Shown one piece after another: positions 1 through 22,498 of a stretch of DNA of 64,000 nucleotides; the first letter of the stretch is position 1; each line of letters begins with the position of its first letter. A model generated the notes under the pieces. The model ran no database searches. It had not been told where the DNA came from and saw only the letters and a list, made by a program, of their open reading frames with translations. Both the position numbers and the translations under genes were made by a program. Source of the stretch: an uncultured Litoreibacter sp. (GTDB taxonomy: Bacteria > Pseudomonadota > Alphaproteobacteria > Rhodobacterales > Rhodobacteraceae); contig CANLVO010000001.1 in the NCBI GenBank assembly GCA_947494645.1, positions 434,001-498,000 of the forward strand. The letters are read 5' to 3'.

Positions 1-323
1 AAGAGCGTCGAGCCCACCACATTTACGTGCAGCAACCCGCCCGGCAGTCGGCCCAGCCACGGGGCCAGCCCGGAAAACAGCGACCGGCCCAGACCGGCGG
101 CGACCAGCACCTCGCTCATCAAGATGAAGAGCGGCAGCGACAGCAATGGCGTCGGGATCACCGAGCCCCAGATGACGCCGCTGGAGAAGATGTCCATTGG
201 GATATTGGGCTTGAAGATCGACAGCAGCACATAGCCGGTGGCAAACAGCGACAGGCCGATCCAGACCGACCCCGCCAGCAAGGCCACGAACAGCAAAATT
301 GTGACGACGGCGATCTCAAACAT
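1..323 (-). CDS. dctM: TRAP transporter large permease DctM (N-terminal part, truncated by window)
   Basis: This is the start of the large membrane subunit of a tripartite ATP-independent periplasmic (TRAP) transporter, which carries an organic acid inward using an ion gradient. The ATG is at 323 and about 107 codons are visible before the window edge, so most of the roughly 430-residue protein is missing. The visible part begins MFEIAVVTILLF and is strongly hydrophobic. It contains SVIPTPLLSLPLFILMSE, typical of DctM N-termini. The start overlaps the end of dctQ by 8 bp, which indicates translational coupling. Family assignment is firm; the substrate is unknown, but the upstream hydantoinase genes suggest a hydantoin-, oxoproline- or amide-type compound. 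Confidence 0.9.
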   Translation of the reverse strand, partial: MFEIAVVTILLFVALLAGSVWIGLSLFATGYVLLSIFKPNIPMDIFSSGVIWGSVIPTPLLSLPLFILMSEVLVAAGLGRSLFSGLAPWLGRLPGGLLHVNVVGSTL

Positions 324-837
324 CTGACGGCTCCGCGTCAGCGTCGCGCCATTCGAACCTTTGCCCAAGGACGCGCCGGGCAAGCCGCGCAAACAGGTCC
401 AGCCACAGCTGCGTCAGGCCCCAAAGCACCACGGCCTGCGGCATCCAGAGCGGCGTTTTGGTGACGCTGGTGGCCAGAATATTGCGCTCGAAAGAGGTGG
501 AGACCTTGGTCCACATCGCCCAGACGATCAGCGCCACAATGACCAGAGCGACGATGTTGGCCACGATATCGAGACCCTTGCTCAGCCGCTCAGGCAGGAT
601 TTCCGCCAGCAGCGTGATGCGCACATGGGTGCCCGCACGAATGGCAGGCCCCGAGGCCAAGGCGAAGACGGCGGCCATGGCGTATTGGCTGAATTCCCAG
701 GTGAACGAAAAGCTTTGCGCCTGCGCACGCGCTACCAGCTCGGTCAGCATCAAAGCGCAATAACCGAAGATCAGGGCCACGGCGGCGGTCTCCGCCAGCC
801 GGGACAGGCGATCAATGAGGGTCAGGATAGGGGTCAT
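316..837 (-). CDS. dctQ: TRAP transporter small permease DctQ
   Basis: This is the small four-helix membrane subunit that bridges DctP and DctM. The ORF is open to 858, but the start at 837 (MTPILTLIDRL) is preferred because the extra residues MPRRTCL are charged and the family normally begins just before the first helix. Four hydrophobic stretches are visible: AVALIFGYCALML, FSQYAMAAVFALASG, IVANIVALVIVALIVWAMW and MPQAVVLWGLTQLWLDL. The central segment carries the usual DctQ pattern of a conserved aromatic-rich loop followed by GPAIRAGTHVRI. The length of about 173 residues is normal. It lies between dctP (42 bp away) and dctM (8-bp overlap) in one operon. The family assignment is secure. 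Confidence 0.9.
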   Translation of the reverse strand: MTPILTLIDRLSRLAETAAVALIFGYCALMLTELVARAQAQSFSFTWEFSQYAMAAVFALASGPAIRAGTHVRITLLAEILPERLSKGLDIVANIVALVIVALIVWAMWTKVSTSFERNILATSVTKTPLWMPQAVVLWGLTQLWLDLFARLARRVLGQRFEWRDADAEPSDV

Positions 838-879
838 CAGACATGTCCGCCGGGGCAATCTCTGCCCCGGCGGTTTGGC

Positions 880-1866
880 TTATTTGCCGACCTTGGCGGC
901 GTAGCTTTCGACCACGGCCTGCGCTTCAGGCACTTTGGCGAAGAACTCGCCCCACATTGCCTTGCCAGCCTCAGCCATTTTGGTTTTCAGGCTGTCATCG
1001 GCTTGCGAGATGGTCATGCCATTGTCGACCAGTACCTTGGTCTGCGCGCTGTCTTCAGCCGCGGATGCTGCCCAGAAATCGGCCTCCATCTTATCGGCGA
1101 GGCCCTGGATGACGCCGCGCTCCTCGTCGCTGAGCGCGTTCCACGCGTCCAGATTGACAGTCACCGCGTCAGGCGACATCGACCAGTTCAACGGGTTGAA
1201 ATGGCTGGTGAACTGATAGAGCTTCGAGTTCGCGCCGGTGGAGGTCGACGTCGCCGCCCCGTCCACGGTACCAGCGGCTACGGCAGCGGCCAGCTCGCCA
1301 AAGGGCAGCTCGACCGGAGCCGCGCCGAGGCGTTCAAGGAAGTCGAACGAGGTGGCATTGAACGCGCGGATGCGCTGGCCGTTCATGTCATCCGCGCTGA
1401 CCACGGCCTCCTTGGTATAGACGCCCGGTGACGGCCACGGCACGTAGTAGAGCACCTTTTGATTATGCTTGGCGAAGATCTCGTCATAGGTGGGGCCTGC
1501 GACCTCCAGCCATGTTTTCATCTCGTCTTGGCCTTGGATCAGGTAGGGCAGGGTGTCGACCCCCAGAAACGGCGCGTCGCCGGCTTGCAGGAACAGCAGC
1601 ATGTCGGCCATCTGGATGATGCCGTTCTCAACAGAGGACAGCTTCTCGGTGATCTTCACGCCGATCTCGCCCGACAGATGCACGGTGATGTCGACGGAGC
1701 CGTTCGTCCCCTCGCGCACGGCGTCGGCAAAGGCGATGGCGCTTTCGGCGTGGAAGTTATTGGCGCCCCAAGCGGTGCTCAGGTCCCATTTGGTCTCTGC
1801 CAAAGCGGCCCCGCTGCCGAGTACAAGGGCCGTGCTGGCGGTCAGTATGGTTTTCATCAGTGTCAT
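880..1866 (-). CDS. dctP: TRAP transporter solute-binding protein DctP
   Basis: This is the periplasmic substrate-binding subunit that delivers solute to the DctQM permease. The 328-residue product begins with a signal peptide (about residues 1-23, ending ALA before ETKWDLSTAW). The mature part shows DctP-family features: HAESAIAFADAVREGTNGSVDITVHLSGEIG near the N-terminus and PVELPFGELAAAVAAGTVDGA in the ligand-lobe hinge region. The ATG overlaps the hyuB stop by 4 bp, so it is coupled to hyuB in a hyuA-hyuB-dctPQM operon. This arrangement suggests that the imported compound is the hydantoinase substrate, but nothing in the binding protein identifies the ligand directly. Confidence 0.92.
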   Translation of the reverse strand: MTLMKTILTASTALVLGSGAALAETKWDLSTAWGANNFHAESAIAFADAVREGTNGSVDITVHLSGEIGVKITEKLSSVENGIIQMADMLLFLQAGDAPFLGVDTLPYLIQGQDEMKTWLEVAGPTYDEIFAKHNQKVLYYVPWPSPGVYTKEAVVSADDMNGQRIRAFNATSFDFLERLGAAPVELPFGELAAAVAAGTVDGAATSTSTGANSKLYQFTSHFNPLNWSMSPDAVTVNLDAWNALSDEERGVIQGLADKMEADFWAASAAEDSAQTKVLVDNGMTISQADDSLKTKMAEAGKAMWGEFFAKVPEAQAVVESYAAKVGK

Positions 1867-3518
1867 GTCGTCGTCCTCCCATTGGGTTTGAATGCGTAAA
1901 GGGATGTGGCTGCCTCGGTCGAGATCAGCCCGTCTGACAGATCGCGTGCGACCACGTCCCTGTCCCGGTCAGCGGGTATCCCAAACCCGCCACCGCCCGG
2001 CGTTTGTAGTATCAACCGCTCCCCCGCCGGAATGTCGTAAATGCCTTTATCGGTGATTTCTGTGCCATCGGTGATGGTCACGCGCCCCGCCGCCCCGTCA
2101 TGCCCCCCCTGACGGCCCGCGGGCCCGGTGGTCAGCCGTTCAAAGGCCGCCGCCGACAGCGACAGCGTTTCATGCGCACGCGCGCCGATCTCGATACGTT
2201 GTCCCAAGCCGCCGCGATAGGCTCCGGCGCCGCCCGTGTCGGGGGCAAATTCCTTGGAATGGTAGATCAACGGCGCGGCCACCTCCGCCACCTCAACCGG
2301 CACCGCGCCCACGCCAGAGGGGAAGGCCGTGGTCGACAACCCGTCCATGCCGGGCCGCGCGCCCATGCCGCCCAAAGCCACGTTCAGCGAGGTAAACGGC
2401 ACCTTGCCGGTGCCCGACAGCGACATCGTCCAAAGCGCGCCCGAGCTTTCGGCCAACACCTCGCCCGGCAAGGCTTGCTCCAGACAGCCCAGCATCAGGT
2501 CCGGCAGCGCTTGGCCAATGACGTGGCGGGCAGTGACCGGGCTGGGCCGCTCTGCGCTGACCACAAGCCCCGGCGGGGCGGTCACCCGGATGGCGTCCAG
2601 TGAGGCCTGATTGTTGGGGATATCCGGCGTCAAAAGCGCCCGGATGCCAAAGGCCGCATACGCAGCGGAGTAGTTCAGCGGGCAGTTGATCCCGCGTCTC
2701 ACCGCCTCGGAAGAGCCGCTCAAATCCACGTCGATTTGCCCGTCAGACACAGTCATCGCCGCACTCAGCTCAATCGGCGCGTCATACCCGTCGAGCAGCA
2801 GCTTGCTTTCATACCGGCCGTTGGGTGCGCGGGCGAGCGCGGATTTGGTGCCTTGTGCGGAGCTGTCAAAGATGAACTTCGACACGCTCGACAGGTCGTC
2901 CAATGCGTATTCCGTCATCAACTTACCGAGCCGCGACACACCGGTGTCGTTGCAGGTCAGAAGCGACAGGATATCGCCGCGGGCCTCATGCGGCACACGG
3001 GAATTTGTCGCGACAATGTCCAGCAGGTCCTCGTTCAGCTGCGCGCCCCGGCGCAAACGCATCACCGGGATAGTCACACCCTCCTCAAAGACGGAGGCCG
3101 CTTCCGCCGACCATCCCCGTCCGCCCACGTCGACAATATGGCTGGTCGAGGCCAGGTACCCGACGATCTTTCCGTCCACGAATACGGGTGTTACCACAAC
3201 GAAATCAAAGACATGGCCCGCACCTAGCCACGGATCGTTGGTCACCAACGCGTCGCCGGGCGACAACTGGTCAGGCGGTATGAATTGCAGCATCGCCCGC
3301 ACGGAGGCCGCCATGGTGTTCACATGCCCCGGCGTCCCGGTCACGGCCTGCGCCAGCATGTCCCCATCAGCGTTAAACACCCCCGCCGACAGGTCCCCCG
3401 CCTCGCGCACAATCGCGCCAAACGCGGCTCGCATCAGAGCATTTGCCTGCTCCTCACACACGGAAATCAGGCGGTTCCACAACACGTTGCGGGCCACGAT
3501 ATCCAGCTCGCCGCTCAT
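1863..3518 (-). CDS. hyuB: hydantoinase B/oxoprolinase family protein
   Basis: This is the B subunit of an ATP-dependent N-methylhydantoinase, 5-oxoprolinase or related acetone-carboxylase-like enzyme, which opens or carboxylates its substrate with help from the A subunit. The 551-residue protein matches the usual subunit length. Family motifs visible are NDPWLGAGHVFDFVVVTPVF near residue 90, a GRGWSAEAASVFEEG segment and a glycine-rich tail, LQTPGGGGFGIPADRDRDVVARDL. It overlaps hyuA upstream and dctP downstream by 4 bp each. The precise substrate cannot be read from sequence: hydantoinases, oxoprolinases and caprolactamases all share this pair. Confidence 0.92.
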   Translation of the reverse strand: MSGELDIVARNVLWNRLISVCEEQANALMRAAFGAIVREAGDLSAGVFNADGDMLAQAVTGTPGHVNTMAASVRAMLQFIPPDQLSPGDALVTNDPWLGAGHVFDFVVVTPVFVDGKIVGYLASTSHIVDVGGRGWSAEAASVFEEGVTIPVMRLRRGAQLNEDLLDIVATNSRVPHEARGDILSLLTCNDTGVSRLGKLMTEYALDDLSSVSKFIFDSSAQGTKSALARAPNGRYESKLLLDGYDAPIELSAAMTVSDGQIDVDLSGSSEAVRRGINCPLNYSAAYAAFGIRALLTPDIPNNQASLDAIRVTAPPGLVVSAERPSPVTARHVIGQALPDLMLGCLEQALPGEVLAESSGALWTMSLSGTGKVPFTSLNVALGGMGARPGMDGLSTTAFPSGVGAVPVEVAEVAAPLIYHSKEFAPDTGGAGAYRGGLGQRIEIGARAHETLSLSAAAFERLTTGPAGRQGGHDGAAGRVTITDGTEITDKGIYDIPAGERLILQTPGGGGFGIPADRDRDVVARDLSDGLISTEAATSLYAFKPNGRTTT

Positions 3519-5578
3519 GAGGCGTCACGCTCCATGACCAGATGGCCATGATCCGATTTGGTCACCGACCAGCCTGGCCGCACAAGAGTGGTGGTTTGCG
3601 CCTCGGGGATGACGACGGGCCCGTGATAAGTCTGCCCGTTCAATCCTTCCCGCGCGACCACGTTGTAGGACAGGCTGCCCCGCGCAGTGATATCGTAAAT
3701 GTTGCGCCGCGCAGATGGGGCGCTTGAGCCATCAACAGGCCTGTACGTCGCATTAGCTTCGTCGCGCATCTGCCGCGCCGTCACACTGACGGAGACCAGC
3801 TCCACAGCAATATTATCCAGCGTAAAGCCAATCAGCGCGCGGTAGCGGTCCTCAAACCGCTCTGACAGCCCCCCGAATTCCGCAGCCTCCCCCGTGCGCA
3901 AGGGCAATGTCAGATCCAGACCTTGCCCCTGATAGCGCAGCTCGGCCTTGATCACCGTTTCGATCTGATCTTCCGCGACCACGTCGGCGACGATGCTTTT
4001 GACATAGGTTTGCGCCGCTGCGATCCGCTTCGCCAAAGCTTCCGCGTCCAGCTCTGACAGCGGTTGCACCACCGAGAGCGCGCTTTCGAAAGCCACCGGA
4101 GAGTGCAGAAACCCAACTGCTGAGCCCACGCCCGCGTTTTGCGGCACGATGATCCGGCGGATCCCCAGCTTGTCGGCGATCCGCGCCCCGTGCAGGCCGC
4201 CCCCGCCGCCAGAGACCAGCAAATCAAAGCCGGAAATGTCGAGGCCCAACTCGACGCCATGTACTCGGGCGGCGTTGGCCATGGTCTCGTCTGCCAGCTC
4301 GATAATGCCCGCAGCCGCAGGCTCCACCGCATCCAGACCCAGCGGCTTTTGCACATGTCTTGCAATCGCCTTGGGCGCGCGGTGCGGCTCCAGTTCAATG
4401 ATGCCGCCCGCAAACCCGTCCGCGTCAATGTTACCAACCGCCAGATGCGCGTCGGTGATTGTGGCCTCGTCACCGCCTTGACCGTATGCCGCGGGGCCGG
4501 GTTCAGCGCCCGCGCTTTTGGGGCCGACTTTCAAACGGCCGAGCCCGTCAATCGCGGCAATTGAGCCGCCCCCTGCGCCGATTTCCACCAGCTCAACCGT
4601 TGGCACTTTGACGGGCAGCCCGCTGCCTTTGACGTCACGCCAAGCGCGGGCCACTTCGAACCGGCGGCTGGTCTTGGGCGTGCCGTTCTCAATGAAGCAA
4701 ATCTTCGCTGTGGTTCCGCCAATATCCAGCGACAACGTTTTGTCAGAGCCCACCTCGCGCGCAATATGCGCGGCCAGTGCGACCCCGCCCGCAGGCCCGC
4801 CTTCGACCAGCCGAATAGGAAAGCGCGTGGCCTGATCGACGGTCGTCAACGCGCCATCAGACAGCATCATCAGGAAAGAGCCGTTGAAGCCCTTGCCCTG
4901 AAGCTGCGTCTGCAACTTGCCGACATAGCGAGACATCAGCGGGCGCACATAGGCATTCGCGCAAACGGTCGAGAACCGCTCATACTCACGGATTTCTCCG
5001 GCCACGTCCGAGCTCAGGCAGATCGTGACGTCATTGCCCAGCAGCCGCTGCAGCCGGGCGGCAACATAATGTTCATGGTCAGGGTTCTTGTAGGAATGCA
5101 GAAACCCGATGGCGACAGCCTCGACCGATTGGCGCCGCAACTCGCCCGCGACCGCGTCAATCTCGGCGTCACTCGGGGCAAGCGCGACCGTGCCATCCGC
5201 CAGCACCCGCTCCGCAAGCCCCAACCGCAGGGGACGGGCCACCAGAGGTTCAGGCAGCGCGATATCAAGCGCATATTGCTCGAAGCGTTTCTCGTAGCGC
5301 ATCGCCAGCACGTCGCGGAACCCTGCAGTGGTTATGAACCCGGTCTTGGCCCCGCGCCGCTCGATCAGCGCGTTCGTGGCCAGCGTCGTGCCGTGCACCA
5401 CATGCGAGATGTCGGCATGGGTCTTTGAGATGCGCGTCAAAAGCCGCTCCACCCCGTCCAGGGCGGCCACTTCCGGGCTGCTTGGGCTGGTCAGCACTTT
5501 GACAGAGGACATCCCCTCGGCCGTCTGCGCGACGACATCTGTAAATGTTCCCCCAATGTCGATTGCAAACCGAACCAT
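3515..5578 (-). CDS. hyuA: hydantoinase A/oxoprolinase family protein
   Basis: This is the ATP-binding A subunit that pairs with HyuB. It has 687 residues and an actin/ASKHA-like fold. The phosphate-binding loop IDIGGTFTDVVA lies at residues 6-17, and a second nucleotide-binding loop, LDIGGTTAKICF, lies near residue 280. EIGAGGGSIAAID and LVSGGGGGLHGARIADKLGI follow in the central and C-terminal parts. It is the first gene of the hyuAB-dctPQM operon. No Shine-Dalgarno sequence precedes the ATG. A promoter-like -10 element ends 6 nt before the start codon, so the message is probably leaderless (see the promoter entry). The substrate is unassigned. Confidence 0.93.
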   Translation of the reverse strand: MVRFAIDIGGTFTDVVAQTAEGMSSVKVLTSPSSPEVAALDGVERLLTRISKTHADISHVVHGTTLATNALIERRGAKTGFITTAGFRDVLAMRYEKRFEQYALDIALPEPLVARPLRLGLAERVLADGTVALAPSDAEIDAVAGELRRQSVEAVAIGFLHSYKNPDHEHYVAARLQRLLGNDVTICLSSDVAGEIREYERFSTVCANAYVRPLMSRYVGKLQTQLQGKGFNGSFLMMLSDGALTTVDQATRFPIRLVEGGPAGGVALAAHIAREVGSDKTLSLDIGGTTAKICFIENGTPKTSRRFEVARAWRDVKGSGLPVKVPTVELVEIGAGGGSIAAIDGLGRLKVGPKSAGAEPGPAAYGQGGDEATITDAHLAVGNIDADGFAGGIIELEPHRAPKAIARHVQKPLGLDAVEPAAAGIIELADETMANAARVHGVELGLDISGFDLLVSGGGGGLHGARIADKLGIRRIIVPQNAGVGSAVGFLHSPVAFESALSVVQPLSELDAEALAKRIAAAQTYVKSIVADVVAEDQIETVIKAELRYQGQGLDLTLPLRTGEAAEFGGLSERFEDRYRALIGFTLDNIAVELVSVSVTARQMRDEANATYRPVDGSSAPSARRNIYDITARGSLSYNVVAREGLNGQTYHGPVVIPEAQTTTLVRPGWSVTKSDHGHLVMERDAS

Positions 5579-5584
5579 TCAAAA

Positions 5585-5613
5585 TAAGTACGTACTTAAT
5601 AAAATTGAGTCAA
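5585..5613 (-). promoter_or_regulatory. putative leaderless promoter with overlapping palindromic operator upstream of hyuA
   Basis: Read on the minus strand there is TTGACT (5613-5608), a 17-bp spacer, then TACTTA (5590-5585), and the hyuA ATG begins 6 nt further on at 5578. Transcription would therefore start at or next to the ATG. The -10 lies inside the perfect 14-bp palindrome TAAGTACGTACTTA (5585-5598), a natural repressor site. No regulator gene lies beside it in this window. Confidence 0.55.
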
Positions 5614-5692
5614 CAAAATTGGAGGAGGCTACGTGGCTGGCTTCCGTTTTGATTAGTCTTGGGCGAGAGGCGGGACACCCAACCGCCACACA

Positions 5693-5941
5693 TCAGTGCA
5701 GCCGGGCCCGCCCGATATAGCCGTCAATCATCTCTTCCCCGAGCGCCCGCATCGCTTCCAGACGGTGCAGCCCCTCCATCAGGATATAGTCCTCCCCGTC
5801 CTCGCGGACCCGAATGGGGGTGGTCTGGCTATTTTCGAGAATATCCTCGGCCAGCGCCTCGACCTTGTCGGGCTCAAGCGTTTTGCGCCGTTTCACAGGG
5901 ACACGGATGCGGGCCACAGGCAGGGGGAGTTTCACAGGCAT
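5693..5941 (-). CDS. small ParB N-terminal-domain-like protein
   Basis: An 82-residue protein consisting of little more than a ParB/sulfiredoxin-like domain. After a basic N-terminus (PVARIRVPVKRRKTLEPDKVEALAEDI) it has TPIRVREDGEDYILMEGLHRLEAMRALGEE, which matches the ParB pattern of a beta strand followed by G-x-x-R-x-x-A (here EGLHRLEAM). The start at 5941 was chosen because the domain begins there; the frame stays open to 6379, but that part is antisense to lepA and looks non-coding. It is too short to include the helix-turn-helix and dimer domains of a true ParB, so a chromosome-partitioning role is unlikely. It is divergent from lepA. Confidence 0.75.
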   Translation of the reverse strand: MPVKLPLPVARIRVPVKRRKTLEPDKVEALAEDILENSQTTPIRVREDGEDYILMEGLHRLEAMRALGEEMIDGYIGRARLH

Positions 5942-7942: not shown

Positions 7943-8239
7943 CTTGCCATGTGCTGCGGCTTTATGGTGAGAGATAGCTCTTACCAGTGCCTATCGCTCT
8001 CCCAAGTTATCGAAATTCTAGGTTTATCTTAGTGCCAGCTGTCCCCGGTCAGAGACTACGATCCCAATCATCGCACCCGAGCCATGCCGAAGGCGGGGGG
8101 AGTCGGGCATGCTTCAAAATAAAAACTAGTTGGACAGTAATCCACCTCTTCCCATAGGTCTGCTCGCAAGTTTGTCTTGCGCCGATGAGGCAACTGGGTC
8201 AAGATTTAGCGGATTATTACAAATTTATTTGGGCTTGCT
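7943..8239. other. AT-richer intergenic segment after lepA
   Basis: No gene is recognisable in these 297 bases. A weak 8-bp hairpin (7966-7973 with 7978-7985, one G-U pair) could serve as the lepA terminator, but no T-tract follows. Composition falls abruptly from the lepA level, marking the start of accessory DNA. The last part presumably holds the promoter of the next gene; no clear -35/-10 pair was found. Confidence 0.5.
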
Positions 8240-8644
8240 ATGAATCCCGCCGAGCTAATTACACTTGGGCTAAATAAAGTTCCGGCAACGAAATGGGGAT
8301 TGGGTGTCGCAGCTTTAGCTGCAATGGCGATCGTAGTATTTTCGAATAGCGACGATCCAGTTGTCCCAATTGTGGGCGCTGCTCTTATTATCGCAGGCGC
8401 TTTTCTGCTAATATTGATGTCGGCTGCCGCTGGTAGTCTTGAAGGTGGTGTTGGTGATGTACTTGTCGGTCCGCTCAAGTTTCTTGTTTGGTCCCTAACT
8501 TTGTTGTTTGTGGCCTTTCTAGTGTTGTTGCTATTGTCAGCATTTGGATTTCTGCCAAATAGCCAAAGTGTTTTTCAAGGATTTGAGAAAGCAGTCAGCG
8601 GTCTATCTGGAATAGAGCCAACAATCGAGGATTTGTTTGAATGA
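8240..8644 (+). CDS. hypothetical membrane protein, three predicted helices
   Basis: An unrecognised 134-residue integral membrane protein. Three hydrophobic helices are visible: GLGVAALAAMAIVVFS (about 20-36), PVVPIVGAALIIAGAFLLILMSAAAG (about 40-65) and FLVWSLTLLFVAFLVLLLLSAFGFL (about 81-105), followed by a short acidic tail ending IEPTIEDLFE. Its stop overlaps the next ATG by 4 bp (ATGA), so the two genes form a translationally coupled pair. Codon use is AT-richer than in lepA upstream, which suggests recent acquisition. No known domain is apparent and no function is proposed. Confidence 0.7.
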   Translation: MNPAELITLGLNKVPATKWGLGVAALAAMAIVVFSNSDDPVVPIVGAALIIAGAFLLILMSAAAGSLEGGVGDVLVGPLKFLVWSLTLLFVAFLVLLLLSAFGFLPNSQSVFQGFEKAVSGLSGIEPTIEDLFE

Positions 8645-9273
8645 TTGCCCAGAGATACTTCTACCTTATTTCGTTGATTTTTGCCTTCGCGGTGGCGGAT
8701 CCATTAAGTGCTCAGAGTTCTTGTCTGGCGGGCTTGACCAAGAGTTCAAAGGCCACAGAATTGCTTTCCTGCTTAAAGAATTTCGAAAGCCGAGTAGCTC
8801 AGCTAGAAACTTTAGCCGAAAGCAACAGAAATGGGTTGGCGGGGGTTTCGACCTACGACGACTCAAAGTTAGCTTCGCGCGTTGAAAAGCTAGAAAATAC
8901 TCAAGGTACGACTGCGTTTCTTTCCGAACAAGCTGCTTCGGCGGGACTATCGGTCGTCGCATCCGGGTTAATCAAATCTTCTGAATTTCGGGACTACAAA
9001 GGAAGCTTGCGCGCGAGTGTAAAAACGGACTTGTCACAATTTGAAACCCCAAAGATATTTGTTTCAATCAAAGGGCGTGGATTCAACTGGTACGTTTCTC
9101 CATCAATCTACCCCTATCGGTATGAAGAATCGCTTCCCGCCGATTGGGACAGCGGATTCGACGTTTTTGTTTACAAGGGTTTTGGTCTCCAGCAAACAAC
9201 TGCCACGGCTGTCGAATTGGCCCGCAGCTATGATTGGCAAATAGACTGGGTTGTTGTCGCGCCTGAGGACTAG
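8641..9273 (+). CDS. hypothetical exported protein with coiled-coil segment
   Basis: An unrecognised 210-residue protein with a predicted signal peptide (about residues 1-24, ending PLSAQSS). The pattern around residues 45-90, FESRVAQLETLAES then SRVEKLENTQGT, suggests a short coiled coil. The C-terminal half is rich in aromatic residues (FNWYVSPSIYPYRYEESLPADWDSGFDVFVYKGF). It is coupled to the membrane protein upstream by a 4-bp overlap, so the two may act together at the cell envelope. Composition is AT-rich compared with the core. Three REP-like palindromes and a dead RAYT transposase follow, suggesting the islet was assembled from mobile DNA. Function unknown. Confidence 0.7.
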   Translation: MIAQRYFYLISLIFAFAVADPLSAQSSCLAGLTKSSKATELLSCLKNFESRVAQLETLAESNRNGLAGVSTYDDSKLASRVEKLENTQGTTAFLSEQAASAGLSVVASGLIKSSEFRDYKGSLRASVKTDLSQFETPKIFVSIKGRGFNWYVSPSIYPYRYEESLPADWDSGFDVFVYKGFGLQQTTATAVELARSYDWQIDWVVVAPED

Positions 9274-9285
9274 TTCTAGCAACCC

Positions 9286-9354
9286 GTAGGGTGCGTGCTC
9301 GCACGCACTATTCAACATCTACCACTTTCCGCCCACAGGTGCGTGAAATCACGC
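9286..9354 (+). repeat. REP-like palindrome pair at the RAYT 3' end
   Basis: Two short palindromes lie 32 bp apart. The first (9286-9308) has the head GTAG followed by a hairpin with arms GTGCGTG/CACGCAC and a 4-nt loop. The second (9341-9354) has arms GCGTGA/TCACGC. A GTAG tetranucleotide beside a palindrome is the hallmark of REP elements recognised by REP-associated tyrosine transposases, and a RAYT pseudogene starts its 3' end here. Confidence 0.65.
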
Positions 9355-9917
9355 CCAGGGCTCCGCCCGTTTGCGACTAAAACCCTCCACTGGAGCGTTT
9401 TCAAGACGCCGCAAACCCCTACGGTCTCGGTGAATGGAGGAAAATTCCCACGCAAGTGGATCATCCACAAACCCGTGTTTCACGGGGTTTGACCAACAAT
9501 ACTCTAGATGGGCGCGGTAATCTGCTTCATCGCGAATATGATGTTCCCAAAATCGGCGTTGCCACAAACCGACCTCTCCTTTGCACCGTAGGGCGGGGTT
9601 CACCCCGCCATTCTCGAAACCTACCGGGGCAGGCGGGGTGAACCCCGTCCTACGCATCGACATTGAAAATCGTGCTTTGATTGCCGCCATGCGTGTGGAG
9701 AAATCGCGGTCACCTGCTGGCAATGTCCACACACAATGCATGTAGTCGGGCAACACAGCACAGGCATCTATGGAAAGGGGCGTTCACGGCGTGTCACCCG
9801 GACGGCGTCGCGAAGGCGGTCGATCTCATTGACCAATAGCCGTGACCCACGCGCCGCGAGGTTGACGGTGAAGAAGACGCAGGCGCCGGTGACTTTGGGG
9901 CGGCGGTAATTTGGCAG
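9349..9917 (-). pseudogene. REP-associated tyrosine transposase (RAYT, IS200-like Y1 family), degraded
   Basis: Two adjacent reading frames together make one RAYT protein. The N-terminal part (YRRPKVTGACVFFTVNLAARG, LLVNEIDRLRDAVRVTRRERPF) is read from about 9917 to 9771. The C-terminal part (VLPDYMHCVWTLP, LWQRRFWEHHIRDEADY, YCWSNPVKHGFVDDPLAWEFSSIHRD) continues in another frame to 9349. Three lesions are visible. The expected initiator before PNYRRP is CTG; an ATG upstream in the same frame gives a long hydrophobic leader not usual in the family. One base is missing at about 9771-9777, followed by a stop at 9768-9770. The HUH catalytic motif, normally DHLH, reads DYMH. A REP palindrome is embedded in the coding frame. 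RAYTs normally mobilise REP elements; this copy is probably inactive. Confidence 0.85.
9587..9654. repeat. BIME-like inverted pair of REP palindromes inside the RAYT gene
   Basis: Two 23-nt arms (9587-9609 and 9632-9654) are reverse complements with one mismatch and enclose a 22-nt loop. The left arm is itself a palindrome (GGCGGGGT, 2 nt, ACCCCGCC) preceded by GTAG; the right arm ends with CTAC. This is the layout of two REP elements in opposite orientation. It overlaps the RAYT codons around residues GFTPP and GGVNPALR. Confidence 0.8.
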
Positions 9918-10048
9918 CCACCAAATGCCATGGGCGAGGTTGACAAAAACCAAAGCCACCCATGACACCTTACCCCATAGTTTCCCCATGAATGGCTCCC
10001 TAGGTTGGGTTACCCACGCAAAACGCAATTCTTGAGGGGACACCGCCC

Positions 10049-10336
10049 ATGTTCAAATTCCTGTTCGGCAAGAAATCCGTTGAAGCGGTTAAAGAAACCC
10101 AGCGCGAAACCGTGGCCCGCGCGATGGGGGAGGTGAATGATGTCCTCGGCCAGATGGCCGTGAAGCCGAACGTGGCTGTCGATCTCAACACCGGGCTGGT
10201 CAAGATCGAGCTGCCAGAGCAGATGCCGGACGAGGCGTTGGCCTTGCCTGCGCCCGAGAAGGCCAAGGTCAAACCGGACGCGAAGACCCCTCCGGAACCT
10301 AAGGTTAATACCAAAGCCAAGGGCAAGGCCGCCTGA
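10049..10336 (+). CDS. small conserved hypothetical protein
   Basis: A 95-residue hydrophilic protein. The N-terminal half (MFKFLFGKKSVEAVKETQRETVARAMGEVNDVLGQM) is predicted helical. A short strand region follows (NVAVDLNTGLVKIELPEQMPDEALALPAP), and the tail is rich in Lys, Ala and Pro (KVNTKAKGKAA) and probably disordered. The start is supported by GAGGGG about 8 nt upstream. The frame has core-like GC composition. The pattern resembles a small uncharacterised protein that I believe recurs in Rhodobacteraceae, but I can give no function. It has no transmembrane segment or signal peptide and stands alone between the RAYT remnant and the VPLPA-CTERM genes. Confidence 0.7.
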   Translation: MFKFLFGKKSVEAVKETQRETVARAMGEVNDVLGQMAVKPNVAVDLNTGLVKIELPEQMPDEALALPAPEKAKVKPDAKTPPEPKVNTKAKGKAA

Positions 10337-10713
10337 TCGTTCTCGGGGCGCAGAGACCGCGAAACCGGCTGCCAGCTTCGCCTCTCATGATTCTGTCACA
10401 GGGGAGGCATCCGCGGCGGATTGTCCCGGTTTTGGAACCAAGCTCGGAAACGAAGAAAAACTGACCCGTGCAGATAGGGCGCCGGACACCGTCTGAACCT
10501 GCGCTGTCCTACGCCATATGGTGTTGATATCACATCGGAACCCCACAGATTGTGTCATTTTTGCAGCGCTGGGCAGGTTTTGCGAATATCAAATTTACCC
10601 TCAGTCGCGGATGAGAGATCCTCGCTTTAGGCGATGATAACAGTCGCGTGAGACGTAGGGCTGTGTTATGGTGCAGCTAACACCTGTGTCTCCATTTATG
10701 AGTGAGGATTAAT
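10337..10713. other. intergenic region upstream of the first VPLPA-CTERM gene
   Basis: No gene is seen in these 377 bases. The final part carries the ribosome-binding site GAGGA (10703-10707) that decides the downstream ATG at 10714. A TGTGTTATGG sequence near 10661 could be an extended -10 element, but no good -35 accompanies it. Confidence 0.5.
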
Positions 10714-11340
10714 ATGACTTTCACCAAACCGATCTTCAAAGCCGCCGTGCTGCCTGCAGCTGCCGCCTTGATGATGTCCACAGCGTCGACTGAGGCCTCT
10801 GTGGTCAGCAGCTACGTTCTGGAAGTTGAAGGCAGCGTTAACTACGTTGATTTCGGCTCCGCATACGCGGTTAACAACAATAACGGTCATTACCGCTACG
10901 TCCGCAACGCGTCTTACCGCAACACGGACCGTCTTTCGATCAACAGCGGTGCGGCATGGGTTGCCGATCTTGAGGCCACCTCCGGTGCCATGCAGATTGA
11001 TATCCACGACACAGGCGATATCAGCTATGCAGGCTGCTCCGGTTTCCTGAGCACAATGTGTAACGGCGCATACCAGTTTGCCTATGGTGCAAGCCTCATT
11101 GCATCTGACGGCTACAGCTTCTTGTCGCAACTGAATAGCCACGGCTTCAACTACGTGGATGACGGCACTTACTCTTGGGATATTGGCAACCACAGCTTCT
11201 TCCAGGCAGGCTACGGCGTGCAGGTCTCCTATGACGTATCGGCCAGCTCGCTTAGCGCGGTTCCGCTTCCGGCTTCCATGGCTTTCCTGATGGGTGGGCT
11301 TGGTCTGCTACTGGGAATGCGCAAGCGCTCCAACGGCTAA
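10714..11340 (+). CDS. VPLPA-CTERM sorting domain protein (exported surface protein)
   Basis: A 208-residue exported protein with a signal peptide (about residues 1-29, ending TASTEAS) and a C-terminal sorting tail: VPLPASMAFLMGGLGLLLGMRKRSNG. The tail has the VPLPA motif, a hydrophobic helix and a basic end. This class of tail is processed by exosortase-type enzymes in alphaproteobacteria, which typically direct proteins to the surface or an extracellular matrix. The middle part is polar, with many Ser, Asn and Tyr and two cysteines (CSGFLSTMC) that may form a disulfide. The start at 10714 is set by GAGGA 6 nt upstream, although the frame extends to 10702. No exosortase gene is in this window. 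A strong terminator follows. Confidence 0.85.
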   Translation: MTFTKPIFKAAVLPAAAALMMSTASTEASVVSSYVLEVEGSVNYVDFGSAYAVNNNNGHYRYVRNASYRNTDRLSINSGAAWVADLEATSGAMQIDIHDTGDISYAGCSGFLSTMCNGAYQFAYGASLIASDGYSFLSQLNSHGFNYVDDGTYSWDIGNHSFFQAGYGVQVSYDVSASSLSAVPLPASMAFLMGGLGLLLGMRKRSNG

Positions 11341-11365
11341 ACACCGACATAATTGATTTTGAAGA

Positions 11366-11394
11366 GGCCGGGCAGCACGCCCGGCCTTTTTCTT
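11366..11394 (+). terminator. Rho-independent terminator of the first VPLPA-CTERM gene
   Basis: A perfect 8-bp stem, GGCCGGGC (11366-11373) with GCCCGGCC (11379-11386), and a 5-nt loop are followed directly by TTTTTCTT. It lies 26 bp after the stop codon. Confidence 0.9.
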
Positions 11395-11563
11395 ATGCGG
11401 TCATCTCTGCGACCGGGGCGTTAACCTGTCAAACCGCGCGTTAATCATGTTTTAAGAAATAGCGAGACATTGGCTGCCCAGCATTCGATACTTGGCCAGG
11501 TGTTGAAACGAGCGCGAGGGCGCGTTTCCCGCCGGTCCAATTGTTCAAAATATGGGGTGTACC

Positions 11564-12205
11564 ATGGCGTCTGCTCAGGCGGCTGTCTTTTCGGCATTGT
11601 TTCTCTTAGTTTCCAGCTTTTCGGCCAGTGCGGCTACGATCCAAAATTACTCGATTTACGCAGAGGGAAGCTTCACGTCGCTCGGGTATCAGCAGCTGTA
11701 CTCCCATGACCGGATGACCTCTGCCTTCTCTATGCATCCCAACATGTCCTTTGCTGAGGCGACCAGCGCAGATCTCGATGGACATTATCTGGCGAATGCT
11801 TTGCGCGCAAAAACCGGCAGCGCGCGGCTGCGTTATGACGCGGGACCGCAATCAGATGGGGAGCGTGCGACCATCACCGATTGTACAGGTTTTCTAATCT
11901 TTTTGTGTGAGGGCAGGGCGCAAGTCTTTGAAACTGAGACAAGAACCCTCCACAGCTACACTGTCAATTCAAGCATCACGAGCTTGTCGGATAATGGGTT
12001 ACTTCATCGAAGCGATGCAGCCGTTGGTTGGTCGTCAGAAAGCACGATTTTCTTTAACGCTGGCGCATTACAGACGGTCGCCTTCAACATATCCTCGCTG
12101 GATATAGATCTGGAAACGGTTCCACTGCCCACCTCGTTGGCGCTTCTATTGGGTGGCATCGCCTTCCTAGGAGGTCTCCGGACAAAACGGGCTCTTTATT
12201 CCTGA
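11564..12205 (+). CDS. second VPLPA-CTERM protein, diverged tandem paralogue
   Basis: A 213-residue exported protein with a signal peptide (MASAQAAVFSALFLLVSSFSASA) and a C-terminal sorting tail: VPLPTSLALLLGGIAFLGGLRTKR. It shares with the upstream gene the N-terminal pattern TIQNYSIYAEGSFTSLGYQQLY (compare SYVLEVEGSVNYVDFGSAY) and a paired-cysteine segment, DCTGFLIFLCEG, aligning with GCSGFLSTMCNG. The two are therefore diverged tandem duplicates. The start could be 11552 or 11564; 11564 is preferred because GGGG lies 6 nt upstream and a clean signal peptide results. It follows the upstream gene's terminator and so must have its own promoter. Function unknown beyond surface sorting. Confidence 0.8.
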   Translation: MASAQAAVFSALFLLVSSFSASAATIQNYSIYAEGSFTSLGYQQLYSHDRMTSAFSMHPNMSFAEATSADLDGHYLANALRAKTGSARLRYDAGPQSDGERATITDCTGFLIFLCEGRAQVFETETRTLHSYTVNSSITSLSDNGLLHRSDAAVGWSSESTIFFNAGALQTVAFNISSLDIDLETVPLPTSLALLLGGIAFLGGLRTKRALYS

Positions 12206-12307
12206 GGCGAGATACTCCGGTGGCTTTGCTCGGAAAGTGGAGGTCTTTGAGCCTCATTCCCCATATGAGCCACGGCTGCCGTAGCAAGAAGACTAGCGCC
12301 TAAAACG

Positions 12308-12341
12308 ACAAAAGGCCGCGGTATGACCCGCAGCCTTTTGT
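12308..12341 (-). terminator. terminator hairpin, probably the original tRNA-Gly terminator
   Basis: An imperfect stem CAAAAGGC/GCCTTTTG with inner GCGG/CCGC pairs and one bulged mismatch is followed on the minus strand by a T-rich run. It lies just beyond the stranded tRNA-Gly 3' fragment at 12357-12402. It is therefore likely to be the native terminator of the tRNA, now separated from it by the island. It could also end the plus-strand VPLPA gene. Confidence 0.65.
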
Positions 12342-12356
12342 GTCGAAGAACCAAAC

Positions 12357-12402
12357 TGGAGCGGGCGATGAGATTCGAACTCACGACCCTAACCTTGGCA
12401 AG
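12357..12402 (-). repeat. attL: 46-bp direct repeat of the tRNA-Gly 3' half
   Basis: These 46 bases are identical to 24281-24326, the 3' half of the intact tRNA-Gly(GCC) including the encoded CCA. Homology stops abruptly on both sides. It marks the left junction of an integrated element whose integrase starts 58 bp to the right. Confidence 0.92.
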
Positions 12403-12460
12403 TGATAACTGTTTAAAAACAAACGCTTACATCCACAACTTGTGTCAAGGGATGTATAAC

Positions 12461-13423
12461 ATGGCAAATATTCGACAACTCCAGTCCGGAAACTGGAACG
12501 TTCAGGTAAGAAGAAGCAAATCCGCCCCGCGTTCACAGACTTTTCACACTCAGGAGGAGGCCATTCGATGGGCAATAAGGGAAGAAGGCGTTGACCGTTT
12601 CACTCATCCAACCTTCGAAGAGGCTGGTCTAAAATTTTGTGACACCGTCTTGCAAGGAAAGCCCTCCCAACGGTTAACAAGCTTGCAGGTCAGACGCATT
12701 GCAAAGCATCCGCGAATGGCAAAGCCAATGGATAGGATTACTTCTCAAGATGTGAATTCATATAAAAAACAAAGAGCCTTGGTTGTTTGTTCTACAACCT
12801 TGCGGGATGACCTTCTCAAAGTTCGCAGAGTTTTTAGATGGTACGTGTCGGAATTATTCGCAGAATTTGGGCTCGTTCTCGACAACCCGTGTGATGCAAT
12901 CACTCTTCCTAAGGCACGAAGGCCTCGTGACAAGGTCGTTAGCCGAAGTGAACTCAAACTCCTTCTGGGAGCCATGAGCCCAGAGATGGCCCAGATTGTT
13001 GAATTGGCATTTGAAACTGCCATGCGGCGTTCAGAGATTTTGCGGCTTGTTCCAAACGATCTTTGTCTAGGGAATAGGTTTCTAAGGGTCGTGGATGGCA
13101 AAGAGGGCTCGCGGGACGTCCCCCTCACCAAACGAGCCGTAGAGCTACTGAGCGACGCTGTCAGAGGCGCTACAAGTCATTCCGCCCCTTTGTTCCCGGT
13201 AGCCGCTTATAGCGTCACACAGGCTGTGAGGAGGGCAAGGGAAACCCTTGGTATGTCATCAGACGTCAGATTCCATCAGCTGCGTCACTCTCGCATCACG
13301 GAAGTTGCGAGAATGGGTCTCAATCAGGCTCAGATAATGGTCGTCAGCGGCCACAGAGATATTCGTAGCGTGCAACGGTACACTCATTTGAACGTAAGGG
13401 ATGTCATCGGATTAATCGACTAA
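12461..13423 (+). CDS. int: tyrosine recombinase/integrase of the tRNA-Gly island
   Basis: A 320-residue site-specific recombinase that would integrate and excise the island at tRNA-Gly. The C-terminal catalytic residues are all present: R189 in AMRRSE, H272 and R275 in HQLRHSR, H298 in SGHRD and the nucleophile Y307 in VQRYTHL. The N-terminal part (about 45-150) is the helical core-binding region. The start at 12461 (MANIRQLQSGNWNVQVRRS) follows AAGGGA with good spacing; the open frame to 12323 is spurious, since it reads through the terminator and the tRNA repeat. A position just inside the att repeat is usual for integrative elements. Confidence 0.93.
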   Translation: MANIRQLQSGNWNVQVRRSKSAPRSQTFHTQEEAIRWAIREEGVDRFTHPTFEEAGLKFCDTVLQGKPSQRLTSLQVRRIAKHPRMAKPMDRITSQDVNSYKKQRALVVCSTTLRDDLLKVRRVFRWYVSELFAEFGLVLDNPCDAITLPKARRPRDKVVSRSELKLLLGAMSPEMAQIVELAFETAMRRSEILRLVPNDLCLGNRFLRVVDGKEGSRDVPLTKRAVELLSDAVRGATSHSAPLFPVAAYSVTQAVRRARETLGMSSDVRFHQLRHSRITEVARMGLNQAQIMVVSGHRDIRSVQRYTHLNVRDVIGLID

Positions 13424-13714
13424 GATGTGTCACACGAGATGGCGCGGACGGCCCAAAGCCGCCGTCTGGTCGGCGTAGCGGATGCTGCGCTCGCAGCTCG
13501 CAGAGCTGACATTCGCGTCAGGGTCCGATGTTGCCTCTCGGCCTTGCGAGAGCAGACACTTCCCTTGGTTCCCACCCGGCAATATGTGTTGGAGCATCAG
13601 GCCTTTACTGGGTCTTTATGCCGATCTAACGTTCGTCAGTCGATGCACGTGTATTATGCTACACCGCAGAAACTCCTACTCCGTAGTATTCCGACTTTAT
13701 GCCGAAGGTTAGAC

Positions 13715-14707
13715 TTGAAATTTAAGCGCCGCACCTTGGAACAGATTGCAGACATGATCTGCGGCAATTTCGAAAGCGACACTTCTGTTTTTCCGTATCG
13801 CAGTAGCTCCTATCTGACCGAGTTCTTCGCCGACGCCGAGACCGACTACGTTCATGACGGCTCCACGCGGAAATGGTGGGTTGCGAGTACCCTGGAGACC
13901 ATCTTGGCCGAGCCGAGCTCTGATCCACGTTCGCCGCCGGACAGCTTCCTACGCGTAATTGAAACGCTCATGGACCAAGGCGATGCCCAAAACGAGGCGG
14001 GCGACCGGCCGAAGGCTCTGGAGATGCTAAACGCGGCTCTCGCGCGGGAAAACTTCGAAGCCTTCTACGGTGATGACCGTATCTGCTATCTCCGCCACAC
14101 CGGGACTAACCAAGCCCTCGCGCCGCAAGCCAATCCGCACCGCCCGCTTTCCGCGGAAGAGCTACAGCGCCGCGAGCGGCTGGAGGCATTTTTGGAAAAA
14201 TGCAGTGAAGATCAGCTCATCGAGGATGTGCTCGTCCCGCTCTTCCGGCAGCTTGGCTTCCACCGGATCAGTGTCTCTGGGCACAAGGACAAAGCGTTAG
14301 AATACGGAAAGGATTTGTGGATGCGCTACGTCCTGCCGACGCAGCATGTGCTTTACTTCGGGCTGCAAGCCAAGAAGGGCAAGCTGGATGCCTCAGGGCG
14401 CTCTGGCGCGACGAATGCAAATATCGCCGAAATCCTCAACCAGACGACCATGATGCTGGGCCATGAGGTCTTCGATCCCGAAGTCTCGCGCCGCGTCCTG
14501 GTCGATCATGCCTTCATCGCCTGCGGCGGTGAAATTACCAAGGCGGCGAAGAATTGGCTCGGCACCAAGTTGGACGCGACCAAGCGCTCCCAGGTCATGT
14601 TCATGGACCGGGATGATATCTTGAATCTTTATGTCGTAACGAACACGCCGCTTCCCGCCGCTACGTTGCCGCCGGAGCCAGAGTCAGACGACGAAATCCC
14701 TTTCTGA
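13715..14707 (+). CDS. putative defence nuclease: helical N-terminal domain plus PD-(D/E)xK-like (QxK) domain
   Basis: A 330-residue protein, or 426 if the unlikely GTG at 13427 were used. The TTG at 13715 is preferred: GAAGG lies 6 nt upstream, and the 96 codons before it look like translated non-coding DNA. Residues 1-130 (FKRRTLEQIADMICGN, FPYRSSSYLTEFF, DGSTRKWWVASTLE) resemble N-terminal domains of abortive-infection proteins such as the AbiJ type, a tentative match. Residues 160-310 look like an Mrr-type restriction endonuclease fold: E170 (QLIEDVLVPLFRQLGF), D200 (EYGKDLWMRY) and Q218-x-K220 (FGLQAKKGK) form a plausible catalytic triad. It sits between the integrase and the retron and may act with the retron or alone. 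Confidence 0.75.
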   Translation: MKFKRRTLEQIADMICGNFESDTSVFPYRSSSYLTEFFADAETDYVHDGSTRKWWVASTLETILAEPSSDPRSPPDSFLRVIETLMDQGDAQNEAGDRPKALEMLNAALARENFEAFYGDDRICYLRHTGTNQALAPQANPHRPLSAEELQRRERLEAFLEKCSEDQLIEDVLVPLFRQLGFHRISVSGHKDKALEYGKDLWMRYVLPTQHVLYFGLQAKKGKLDASGRSGATNANIAEILNQTTMMLGHEVFDPEVSRRVLVDHAFIACGGEITKAAKNWLGTKLDATKRSQVMFMDRDDILNLYVVTNTPLPAATLPPEPESDDEIPF

Positions 14708-14725
14708 TGGTCGCTAGACCAGCAC

Positions 14726-14755
14726 TTGTTAGCGTGGGAATTTTCTTGCTATAGT
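14726..14755 (+). promoter_or_regulatory. promoter of the retron RNA
   Basis: TTGTTA (14726-14731), an 18-bp spacer and TATAGT (14750-14755, preceded by TGC as an extended -10) predict transcription starting at about 14761-14762. That is exactly the first base of the a1 repeat of the retron RNA. Confidence 0.7.
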
Positions 14756-14760
14756 TGAAG

Positions 14761-14898
14761 GGCTTACGGGCAGACTTCCTGCTGCGCATCGCGGCAAATG
14801 ACAACAATGGTAGGCAGGCTGCTTACCTTCAGGTTCCCTTGCGGTATTTCGATTATTCGGTGTATCGCCGACGCTCGCATAAGAGTGCCCGTAAGCAC
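14761..14898 (+). ncRNA. msr-msd: retron msr-msd non-coding RNA
   Basis: This is the template RNA of the retron, reverse transcribed by the downstream enzyme into RNA-linked multicopy single-stranded DNA. The diagnostic a1/a2 inverted repeat is present: GCTTACGGGCA (14762-14772) and TGCCCGTAAGC (14886-14896), 11 bp, perfect. Directly after a1 is a candidate branching G (14773). Three hairpins lie between the repeats: a short msr stem (14780-14796, CAT loop); a 9-bp stem (14809-14817 with 14819-14827); and an 11-nt-arm stem with ATTATT loop (14841-14851 with 14858-14868), the last two probably in msd. The a2 repeat ends 16 nt before the reverse transcriptase ATG, the normal retron order. The exact msr/msd boundary cannot be fixed from sequence alone. 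Confidence 0.85.
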
Positions 14899-14912
14899 CT
14901 GAATCAGAGTAC

Positions 14913-16703
14913 ATGCATTTGAGTTCATTAGAAAAATTACAAGAAGCAAATAGCCTCACAGACCTTGCCAAGCTGCTTGGCTTCACCCCGAAAGGCGTCA
15001 GCTACGTCCTCTACAAGATGGACTCAGCCAAGAAGTACCGCTCTTTCGATATCCCGAAGAAATCGGGCGGTGTGCGCGCTATTCATGCACCTGAGCCGCA
15101 GCTTGCCTTGCTACAGACCCGCCTTGCCGAATTGCTCTATGCCTGCGTGCACGAGAAAAAGAAGACTGACCGGCGTTTCTGGTTTGCCTCGCATGGCTTT
15201 CATCAGGGGCGCACCATCGTCTCCAACGCCGAAGTACACAGGCGGCGGCGCTTCGTCTTCAATCTCGATTTGGAGAACTTCTTCGGCACGATCAATTTCG
15301 GTCGAGTTCGCGGCTTTTTCATCCACGACTCTATGTTCTCCCTGGAGCCGAAAATTGCCACGATCATCGCCCAGATTGCATGCCACGATAATGCTCTGCC
15401 GCAGGGTAGCCCCTGTTCGCCGGTCATATCGAACTTGATCGGAAATATCCTGGATTCGCGGCTTCTCGCGCTCGCGCGCGATGCGCGCTGCACATATACG
15501 CGCTACGCCGATGATCTAACCTTCTCGACCAACGAGAAGCTCTTCCCGACCGAAATTGCCGTGAACGTACACGGCGCTGATTGGGAGGTCGGAAAGAAGC
15601 TTAGGAAGGAAATTGAGAAGTCCGGGTTCTTCATTAATCCGGTGAAGACGCGCATGTCTTTGCGCCGCTCGCGCCAGACCGTCACAGGGCTGGTGGTGAA
15701 CGAGAAAGCCAATATCAATCAGGACTACTACCGCGCTGCGCGGTCCATGTGCAATTCGCTCTTCCAGACAGGATACTATTTCAAGCCGAGCGATGACCCT
15801 GCAGATGTCACTGACAATCTGAACCCCTTGGAGGGGACGCTATCGCACATCTATTTCGTTAAGGCGCGGCGAGACCGTAAGCCAAGGGTTAACAAGCTGG
15901 CCAAAGCCGCAGGTGAGTTTAACCCACCGCGCGCGCCCGAAAACCTCTATCGGAAGTTTCTGTTTTACAAGTACTTTGCCGCGCCCAATGCGCCGCTCAT
16001 CGTGACCGAAGGCATCTCGGATATCACCTATCTGCAATGCGCTATCCGCACGCTGGTCAAGAAATTTCCGCTCCTTGGAAAAGAGGAAGGCGGCAAGGTT
16101 GTCCGTCTGGTGCACTTCTTAAAGCCCACCGGCACGTCGCGGGATATCTTGAACCTCGGCCACGGCGCTGCCGGGCAATCCTCGCTGTTATCCAGCTACA
16201 CAAATAACCTGAAGAACTACGCTCACAAGCCGATGGCCAACCCCGTGATCATCCTCTGTGACAATGATGATGGCCCCAAGACGGTCTTCAAGAACGCTGA
16301 AAAGAAGTGCGGCACCAAGATCACAACGGCAACGACTGAACCTTTCTATTATCTCGGCGAAAACCTGTACCTCGTGAAGGTGCCGGAAGGCGCTACGCCC
16401 CATCCGCGAGAAATCGAAGACTTGTTCCAGCCAGCCTTGCTGGCAACCAAGCTGAACGGGAAATCCTTTGATCCGAAGAAGGATCATGGTGATGACACGC
16501 ATTACGGCAAGGTGGCCTTTGCGGAATCGGTCGTGCGGGCGAATGCCAGTACCGTCGATTTTTCTGGCTTCGAAGAACTATTGGAGCGCATTGAAGCTGT
16601 TTTAAAGCACTATGCAACCATTCTGGCGGCTCCGAGCGCAACGCCAGCGCCGGCAGCCGCTGCGGCATCTGCGCCGCCACCCACGGGCACTGCAACACCG
16701 TAA
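14913..16703 (+). CDS. retron reverse transcriptase fused to a TOPRIM domain (Ec67-like)
   Basis: A 596-residue fusion protein. The RT domain covers about residues 40-330. It has the catalytic aspartates in FNLDLENFF (D119) and YADD (198-201), LPQGSPCSP (162-170), and the two retron hallmark motifs NAxxH (NAEVH, 105-109) and VTG (257-259). Residues about 345-560 form a TOPRIM domain with the metal-binding glutamate in TEGISD (E366) and the acidic cluster DNDD (450-453). The tail is Ala/Pro-rich and probably flexible. The RT would make msDNA from the RNA gene 16 nt upstream, and the TOPRIM domain is the likely nuclease-type effector of an anti-phage abortive response, by analogy with retron Ec67. 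The start at 14913 has only a weak Shine-Dalgarno sequence. Confidence 0.93.
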
Positions 16704-16883
16704 TCTCTCACCGACAATCTCATTGAGAATGGCCCGCCGTAGCCCCAATTCATCCTCGGTCCAAGACGCCCCATTGCGGCTTTTGATTGCCTCCGTTCGA
16801 TGGACCCGCGCAGTCATGATTTGCGTCTTCAGACCCGCGATTTCACATGCGACTTGTCCGAACCGAAGATCGAGGGACAACAC
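16704..16883 (-). pseudogene. possible gene remnant downstream of the retron
   Basis: On the minus strand a frame beginning with GTG at 16883 reads plausible protein (VACEIAGLKTQIMTARVHRTEAIKSRNGASWTEDELGLRRAILNEIVGE). It then degenerates into arginine- and cysteine-rich nonsense where it runs antisense into the retron coding end. It may be a gene truncated by arrival of the retron. The family is not recognised and no start signal is clear. Confidence 0.35.
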
Positions 16884-16928
16884 AGTCTCGGTTTACCGGT
16901 CGCTAGGGAAATTGCTAAAGGCGCTGCA

Positions 16929-17243: not shown

Positions 17244-17258
17244 CGGCCGGACCCGTCC

Positions 17259-17465: not shown

Positions 17466-17467
17466 CT

Positions 17468-22407: not shown

Positions 22408-22498
22408 CGGGAAATCTATTGTGCTTTGATCTCCCCTGGGCTACCTGTTTTAAGATACATTCGACTACCGCAAGTCAGGGTAAGAAGGGAGCGTTCGA

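Follow-up and report, generated by a model that had tools for sequence, protein, structure and literature searches.

A conserved candidate operator of a HutC-type regulator over the putative -10 element of a probably leaderless hydantoinase-family operon

How is a catabolic operon controlled when its first gene, hyuA, is preceded by a palindrome instead of a Shine-Dalgarno sequence? This question is raised by a stretch of 64,000 nucleotides from an uncultured Litoreibacter sp., referred to here as the window. Read on the minus strand, the region before hyuA comprises TTGACT, 17 nt, TACTTA, TTTTGA and the ATG, in this order (Table 1). An earlier note on this DNA had placed TACTTA at only 6 nt from the ATG without a Shine-Dalgarno sequence, and this holds, with a CCUCCU pairing of 0 kcal/mol over the 20 nt before the ATG. 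The perfect 14-bp palindrome that it described, TAAGTACGTACTTA, is equally present; it spans TACTTA, and 6 nt separate it from the ATG. From these elements, the note derived that hyuA is transcribed without a leader and that a dimeric repressor could have its operator over the -10, and both proposals gain support from conservation in 15 loci. Taken literally, its remark that the window holds no adjacent regulator of this kind is correct, but it misleads. A GntR/UTRA gene ends the same operon just beyond the left edge (Table 1), and it was missed because the window edge cuts the operon. Our reading of the sequences, in which we have considerable confidence, is that an autoregulated GntR/HutC repressor would act over the -10 of a leaderless hyu promoter and would be released by a ligand.

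Table 1. Features of the hyu promoter and operon, in window positions unless stated otherwise
Feature	Position	Strand	Basis or remark
-35 element TTGACT	5608..5613	-	Read from sequence; comparative support
Operator, perfect 14-bp palindrome with GT-N4-AC core	5585..5598	.	Candidate site; sequence and conservation
Putative -10 TACTTA, inside operator	5585..5590	-	17 nt from -35; inferred from position
hyuA ATG, predicted leaderless transcription start	5576..5578	-	29 nt after -35 hexamer
hyuA-like, hydantoinase/oxoprolinase family A subunit	3515..5578	-	Pfam Hydant_A_N + Hydantoinase_A
hyuB-like, hydantoinase B/oxoprolinase family	1863..3518	-	Pfam Hydantoinase_B; overlaps hyuA end
dctP, TRAP solute-binding protein	880..1866	-	Pfam DctP
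dctQ, TRAP small permease	316..858 (start codon provisional)	-	Pfam DctQ
dctM start, TRAP large permease	1..392, continues left of window	-	Pfam DctM
gntR, last gene	L002 12321-13037, starts 964 bases left of the window's first base		ORFs, Pfam GntR + UTRA

When the reading is extended 14 kb to the left of the window, the genes follow each other on one strand in the order hyuA-hyuB-dctP-dctQ-dctM-gntR, presumably forming one transcript. The gntR start overlaps the dctM end as ATGA in the junction sequence. All three hydantoinase/oxoprolinase family domains (Hydant_A_N, Hydantoinase_A and Hydantoinase_B) are present in HyuA/HyuB, and the caprolactamase (CapAB) models score 430.4 and 176.7 bits on these proteins, below both cut-offs of 1000. 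An 82-aa ORF (5693-5941, minus strand) separates hyuA from a gene that by eye is lepA-like; this ORF has a weak ParB-like similarity below the cut-offs and no Pfam match. Two plasmid copies of the operon carry an SDR oxidoreductase gene after gntR (L024 10725-11417, L025 12692-13414), possibly for the next catabolic step in these copies. By eye, no SDR gene was recognised next to gntR in the ORF list of the own genome.

Elsewhere in the window, the stretch from about 8 to 24 kb (8001-24355) has a lowered GC content of 0.48-0.54. A phage-integrase-family gene is located at 12323-13423 and a tRNA-Gly (24281-24355) near the far edge of the low-GC stretch, which is possibly a genomic island. Two neighbouring proteins (10702-11340 and 11552-12205) have no Pfam match. 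Their C-termini consist of VPLP..., a run of hydrophobic residues and a few basic ones, which we take to resemble the VPLPA-CTERM sorting signal.

The gntR product counts 238 residues and combines an N-terminal GntR winged HTH (PF00392, 56.9 bits with a cut-off of 27) with a C-terminal UTRA effector domain (PF07702, 47.7 bits with a cut-off of 23.8). Among solved structures (PDB), YvoA/NagR provide the two best matches to it, with DasR lower in the ranking. The HutC equivalog model TIGR02018 scores 70 bits for a cut-off of 220, and the neighbours are hyu and TRAP genes; HutC proper, the histidine utilization repressor, is rejected on these grounds. None of the 24 matched NCBIfam models, HutC and PhnF included, reaches its cut-off. 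Judged from its sequence, the protein is a GntR family member of the HutC subfamily type, i.e., HutC-like but not HutC. For most HutC-subfamily sites, a distance of 4 nt between GT and AC and the consensus NyGTMTAKACNy are described (PMC4494728). Suvorova and others also report for this subfamily that an Arg at HTH position 28 is associated with a G/C beside the core, and that the residue at HTH position 39 correlates with the operator centre (PMC4494728). The candidate operator has the core spacing of the subfamily, mostly A/T flanks and a CG centre instead of TA. We take HTH position 28 from the Pfam alignment to be residue 31; across the 15 loci it is occupied by Gly, Ala, Val or Gln and by Arg in none of them (0/15). 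A residue other than Arg together with A/T flanks agrees with a pairing of this repressor and this site, without proving it.

The 15 loci (the own locus included, repeats removed) were chosen via GntR and are related, so that counts over them are not independent. All share the gene order of the window's operon (15/15). An order-wide search with the GntR protein gave matches at E 1e-20 in at least 15 of 390 genomes. At least five are clear orthologues, i.e., the own protein and four at 55-58% identity; the ten other genomes hold distant matches (26-31% identity) and were left out of the site comparison. A class-wide draw gave a match in at least one of 385 genomes, the own genome (E 1e-35). Up to seven candidates per genome were scored in both searches, and the orthologue counts are lower bounds. 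Searches for GntR in single genera hit 3/56, 2/33, 2/21 (own genus) and 4/62 genomes, and one Kiloniellaceae contig and three plasmids were added to the set. G851 was excluded as it is the same stretch as L024, with identical coordinates. No GntR relative was found in the viral contigs searched. The operon is patchy, being present in 2 of the 21 genomes of its own genus, and is plasmid-borne in three species, with all plasmids typed as non-mobilizable. The window's GntR is 73% identical to the Kiloniellaceae copy; two copies from its own family reach 71% and 75%, and nine other Rhodobacterales copies 54-59%. These identities suggest that the operon may have moved by horizontal transfer. In L046, hyuA was matched over only part of its length in the first tblastn piece and may be broken or more diverged.

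Where does the hyuA message start? TACTTA shares only two of six positions with TATAAT, and the hyuA promoter is absent from the list of a simple consensus promoter scan. Therefore, the promoter call is built on comparative evidence and not on the -10. The one promoter-like site that the scan did list (1.9 expected by chance) lies across the hyuA promoter but on the plus strand, at 5578-5605. A terminator-like site was also reported at 5624-5645 (plus strand). As ten terminator-like sites were listed with 7.3 expected, both numbers are near chance.

By promoter geometry, transcription that begins on the start codon requires a distance of 28-30 nt between the -35 and that codon. In 13 of the 15 loci, a TTGAC[A/T] box precedes the hyuA start codon by 28 nt (two loci), 29 nt (eight) or 30 nt (three); it is absent in the two most diverged loci, L025 and L026. 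Based on the window frequency, the chance of the box at three positions is about 0.06%. Among the 4067 ATGs in the 15 loci, 16 have the box at this distance; as 12 of the 13 boxed loci start with ATG, about four of these 16 represent background. The start codon of hyuA is ATG in the window and in 14/15 loci, and GTG in L020. The mean CCUCCU pairing (kcal/mol) amounts to -1.0 for hyuA (15 loci), compared to -5.9 for hyuB (14, including one misplaced start in L025), -8.3 for dctP (13) and -4.3 for gntR (13), and the own operon gives 0, -5.6, -9.9 and -5.7, respectively. The comparison excludes dctQ and dctM, whose starts are not reliably placed (7 and 5 values). The strongest pairing before hyuA is that of GGAAG in L026 (-3.9).

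The footprint of conservation was compared over 91 pairs from 14 loci, L026 being left out. Mean inter-locus identity versus that of shuffled sequence is 0.44/0.40 from -48 to -36, 0.64/0.44 from -36 to -24, 0.74/0.46 from -24 to -12 and 0.54/0.42 from -12 to 0; beyond about -48 the gap between both values never exceeds 0.01. The identity clearly exceeds that of shuffled sequence only near the start, so the conserved regulatory region spans about 36 nt. In alphaproteobacteria, messages without a leader are known to form a minority, with 171 leaderless starts in Sinorhizobium meliloti, all mapped messages of this kind starting with AUG (PMC3616915), 7% in Methylorubrum (PMC9320726) and, for Zymomonas, 119 of 2,675 start-gene pairs (PMC7566282). 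Taken together, hyuA mRNA probably starts at its initiation codon. The weak -10, the imperfect palindromes in some loci, the GTG of L020, the two missing TTGAC boxes and the GGAAG of L026 keep this claim short of certain.

The alternative that survives best accepts GntR on its operator but holds that the message is not truly leaderless, having either a leader, short or long, from another promoter or a ribosome site that is not of the Shine-Dalgarno type. The weak -10, the GTG start of L020 and the GGAAG before the ATG of L026 would fit such a situation, and 59 of the 171 leaderless starts reported for S. meliloti are accompanied by another start (PMC3616915). Yet, the distance from the -35 to the start codon is held at 28-30 nt in 13/15 loci while that from the -35 to the operator varies by 2 nt, and upstream of about -48 the loci resemble each other no more than shuffled sequence does. 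This alternative is hence considered unlikely.

The leaderless reading leaves the palindrome as the next element to be explained. TAAGTACGTACTTA is the sole match in the window at up to three mismatches; 100 window shuffles gave a mean of 0.17 matches, with at least one match in 15 of them. It is also unique in the own 3.44 Mb genome at up to two mismatches, where the reversed-pattern control occurs in three places. The earlier note had named conservation of the palindrome in relatives as a check, which comes out in part: the GT-N4-AC core is found just before hyuA in 15/15 loci, as expected for a HutC-subfamily operator with GT and AC 4 nt apart, but the perfect 12-bp palindrome, as the exact 12-mer AAGTACGTACTT, occurs only in 7/15 and is imperfect in the other 8/15. 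The 12-bp site ends 6-10 nt before the start codon, and its positions G3, T4, C6, A9 and C10 are invariant (15/15). As a rough control, GT-N4-AC occurs at a comparable place before 53 of the 4067 ATGs, hyuA starts included. Six operon-bearing genomes were searched with the 12-mer at up to one mismatch, and five have the exact sequence once each, before hyuA; two of these five also carry a one-mismatch site elsewhere. G068 has no match because its diverged site, AAGTTCGTACTA, has two differences. Of these one-mismatch sites, that of the own genome, at C2:93690, looks by eye like part of a coding frame; that of G216 is located at C8:47120.

Could the site belong to a regulator encoded elsewhere, with the linked GntR acting on other targets? 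As the loci were found through gntR, the presence of this gene is a matter of construction. The site, however, was no search criterion, and its core is nonetheless present at all 15 gntR loci; in addition, its spacing is that of the HutC-subfamily core as described in PMC4494728. With no other site in the own genome at up to two mismatches, a distant regulator is very improbable. The linked GntR might also be an activator or a dual regulator at this site, since activation is known for some GntR proteins. We hold this for equally improbable, as the site covers the -10, where binding is expected to block the polymerase, and the acuR operon of Rhodobacter sphaeroides, with its operator overlapping the promoter, is described as repressed (PMC3017554). 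A role for the palindrome within the transcript, as an RNA hairpin or another element, is hardly credible and was rejected on the basis of the alignment: a perfect inverted repeat can fold in principle, but it would be untranscribed with a start at the ATG, its centre, and thus the would-be loop, is conserved through the five invariant positions, and the outer positions of the 12-mer vary without consistent compensation.

We also searched for promoter and operator as one composite pattern, TTGACN-N8-12-AGTACGTACT, which matches 6 of 390 genomes: four of the five with the operon and two without it. As reversed-pattern controls match in five genomes and two matches are outside the operon, the composite pattern alone is no proof. 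A first version with too long gap limits matched the own genome only (1/390). One match outside the operon, L051, is GC-rich and looks like coding sequence by eye. The other, L050 (about 1500-1620; G270), comprises TTGACA, TTAGTACGTACTTTAA and an ATG at the spacing of the hyu promoter, and precedes an ORF that by eye resembles a transposase. A promoter remnant was rejected here, tblastn of the six operon proteins against the surrounding 20 kb giving nothing better than E 0.008; the L050 match stays unexplained or is due to chance.

On the preferred reading, the palindrome is very probably the on/off switch of a nutrient-use operon. It would be the operator of the HutC-subfamily repressor encoded by the last gene, whose dimer on GT-ACGT-AC would exclude RNA polymerase because the site covers the -10. 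A small molecule in the UTRA domain would free the operator; this is probably the lactam or hydantoin-like compound that the operon imports as substrate, or the product made from it. Upon release, the importer, the ATP-dependent ring-opening enzyme and the repressor would be made together; with the regulator gene in the same gene run, this would amount to local negative autoregulation. The -35 would direct transcription to begin on the hyuA initiation codon or no more than one or two bases away from it. We infer the binding, repression rather than activation, the ligand and the exact 5' end from sequence and comparison. As a wider, somewhat tentative proposal that we favour, a distinct HutC-subfamily group with the operator AAGTACGTACTT (CG centre, A/T flanks, no Arg at HTH position 28) may run a patchy, sometimes plasmid-borne operon for lactam or hydantoin-like compounds from a leaderless promoter. 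In this group, the enzyme subunit rather than the repressor would be leaderless, which would pack the -35, operator, -10 and initiation codon into about 38 nt.

The catabolic operon gains a candidate target site and a likely regulator, and the inducer, and hence the substrate of the hydantoinase-like enzyme, becomes testable. If this reading is confirmed, the operon would join acuR-acuI-dddL as a further conserved catabolic operon of this bacterial group that is leaderless and under a repressor. As gene control in bacteria goes, this kind is conserved but ordinary.

Among the matches listed from the open-access literature, none describes a GntR-hydantoinase-TRAP operon; its parts do resemble known systems. 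HyuA and HyuB share with the ATP-dependent hydantoinase/5-oxoprolinase/caprolactamase family the A and B subunits and the conserved N-terminal domain (PMC8453981). Unlike the caprolactamase of that family, they score below the cut-offs of its models, and in the hyu cluster they are accompanied by genes for a TRAP importer and a GntR regulator. The regulator matches HutC, NagR/YvoA, DasR and PhnF in its GntR HTH and UTRA domains and its palindromic GT-N4-AC operator, but the operator differs from those of HutC-subfamily repressors by its CG rather than TA centre and its A/T flanks. The best experimental precedent, and a close one, is acuR-acuI-dddL of R. sphaeroides, where 5' RACE led to the AUG and the operator of a TetR-type repressor overlaps the promoter (PMC3017554). 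Both operons lack a Shine-Dalgarno sequence before the first gene, have an inverted repeat over the promoter as operator (a candidate one in hyu), share a similar -35 (TTGATT in acuR) and encode the repressor, in hyu a putative one, within the operon (PMC3017554). The acuR transcript is mapped to the AUG of its first gene while the hyu start is predicted, and the acuR -10 (TATTAT) is better than the TACTTA of hyu (PMC3017554). The acuR operator consists of an 8-bp repeat with a 6-nt spacer, and AcuR belongs to the TetR family; acuR is the first, poorly translated gene, whereas the hyu regulator is encoded by the last gene and is of the GntR/HutC type (PMC3017554). In the hyu operon, unlike in acuR-acuI-dddL, the gene predicted to be leaderless encodes an enzyme subunit.
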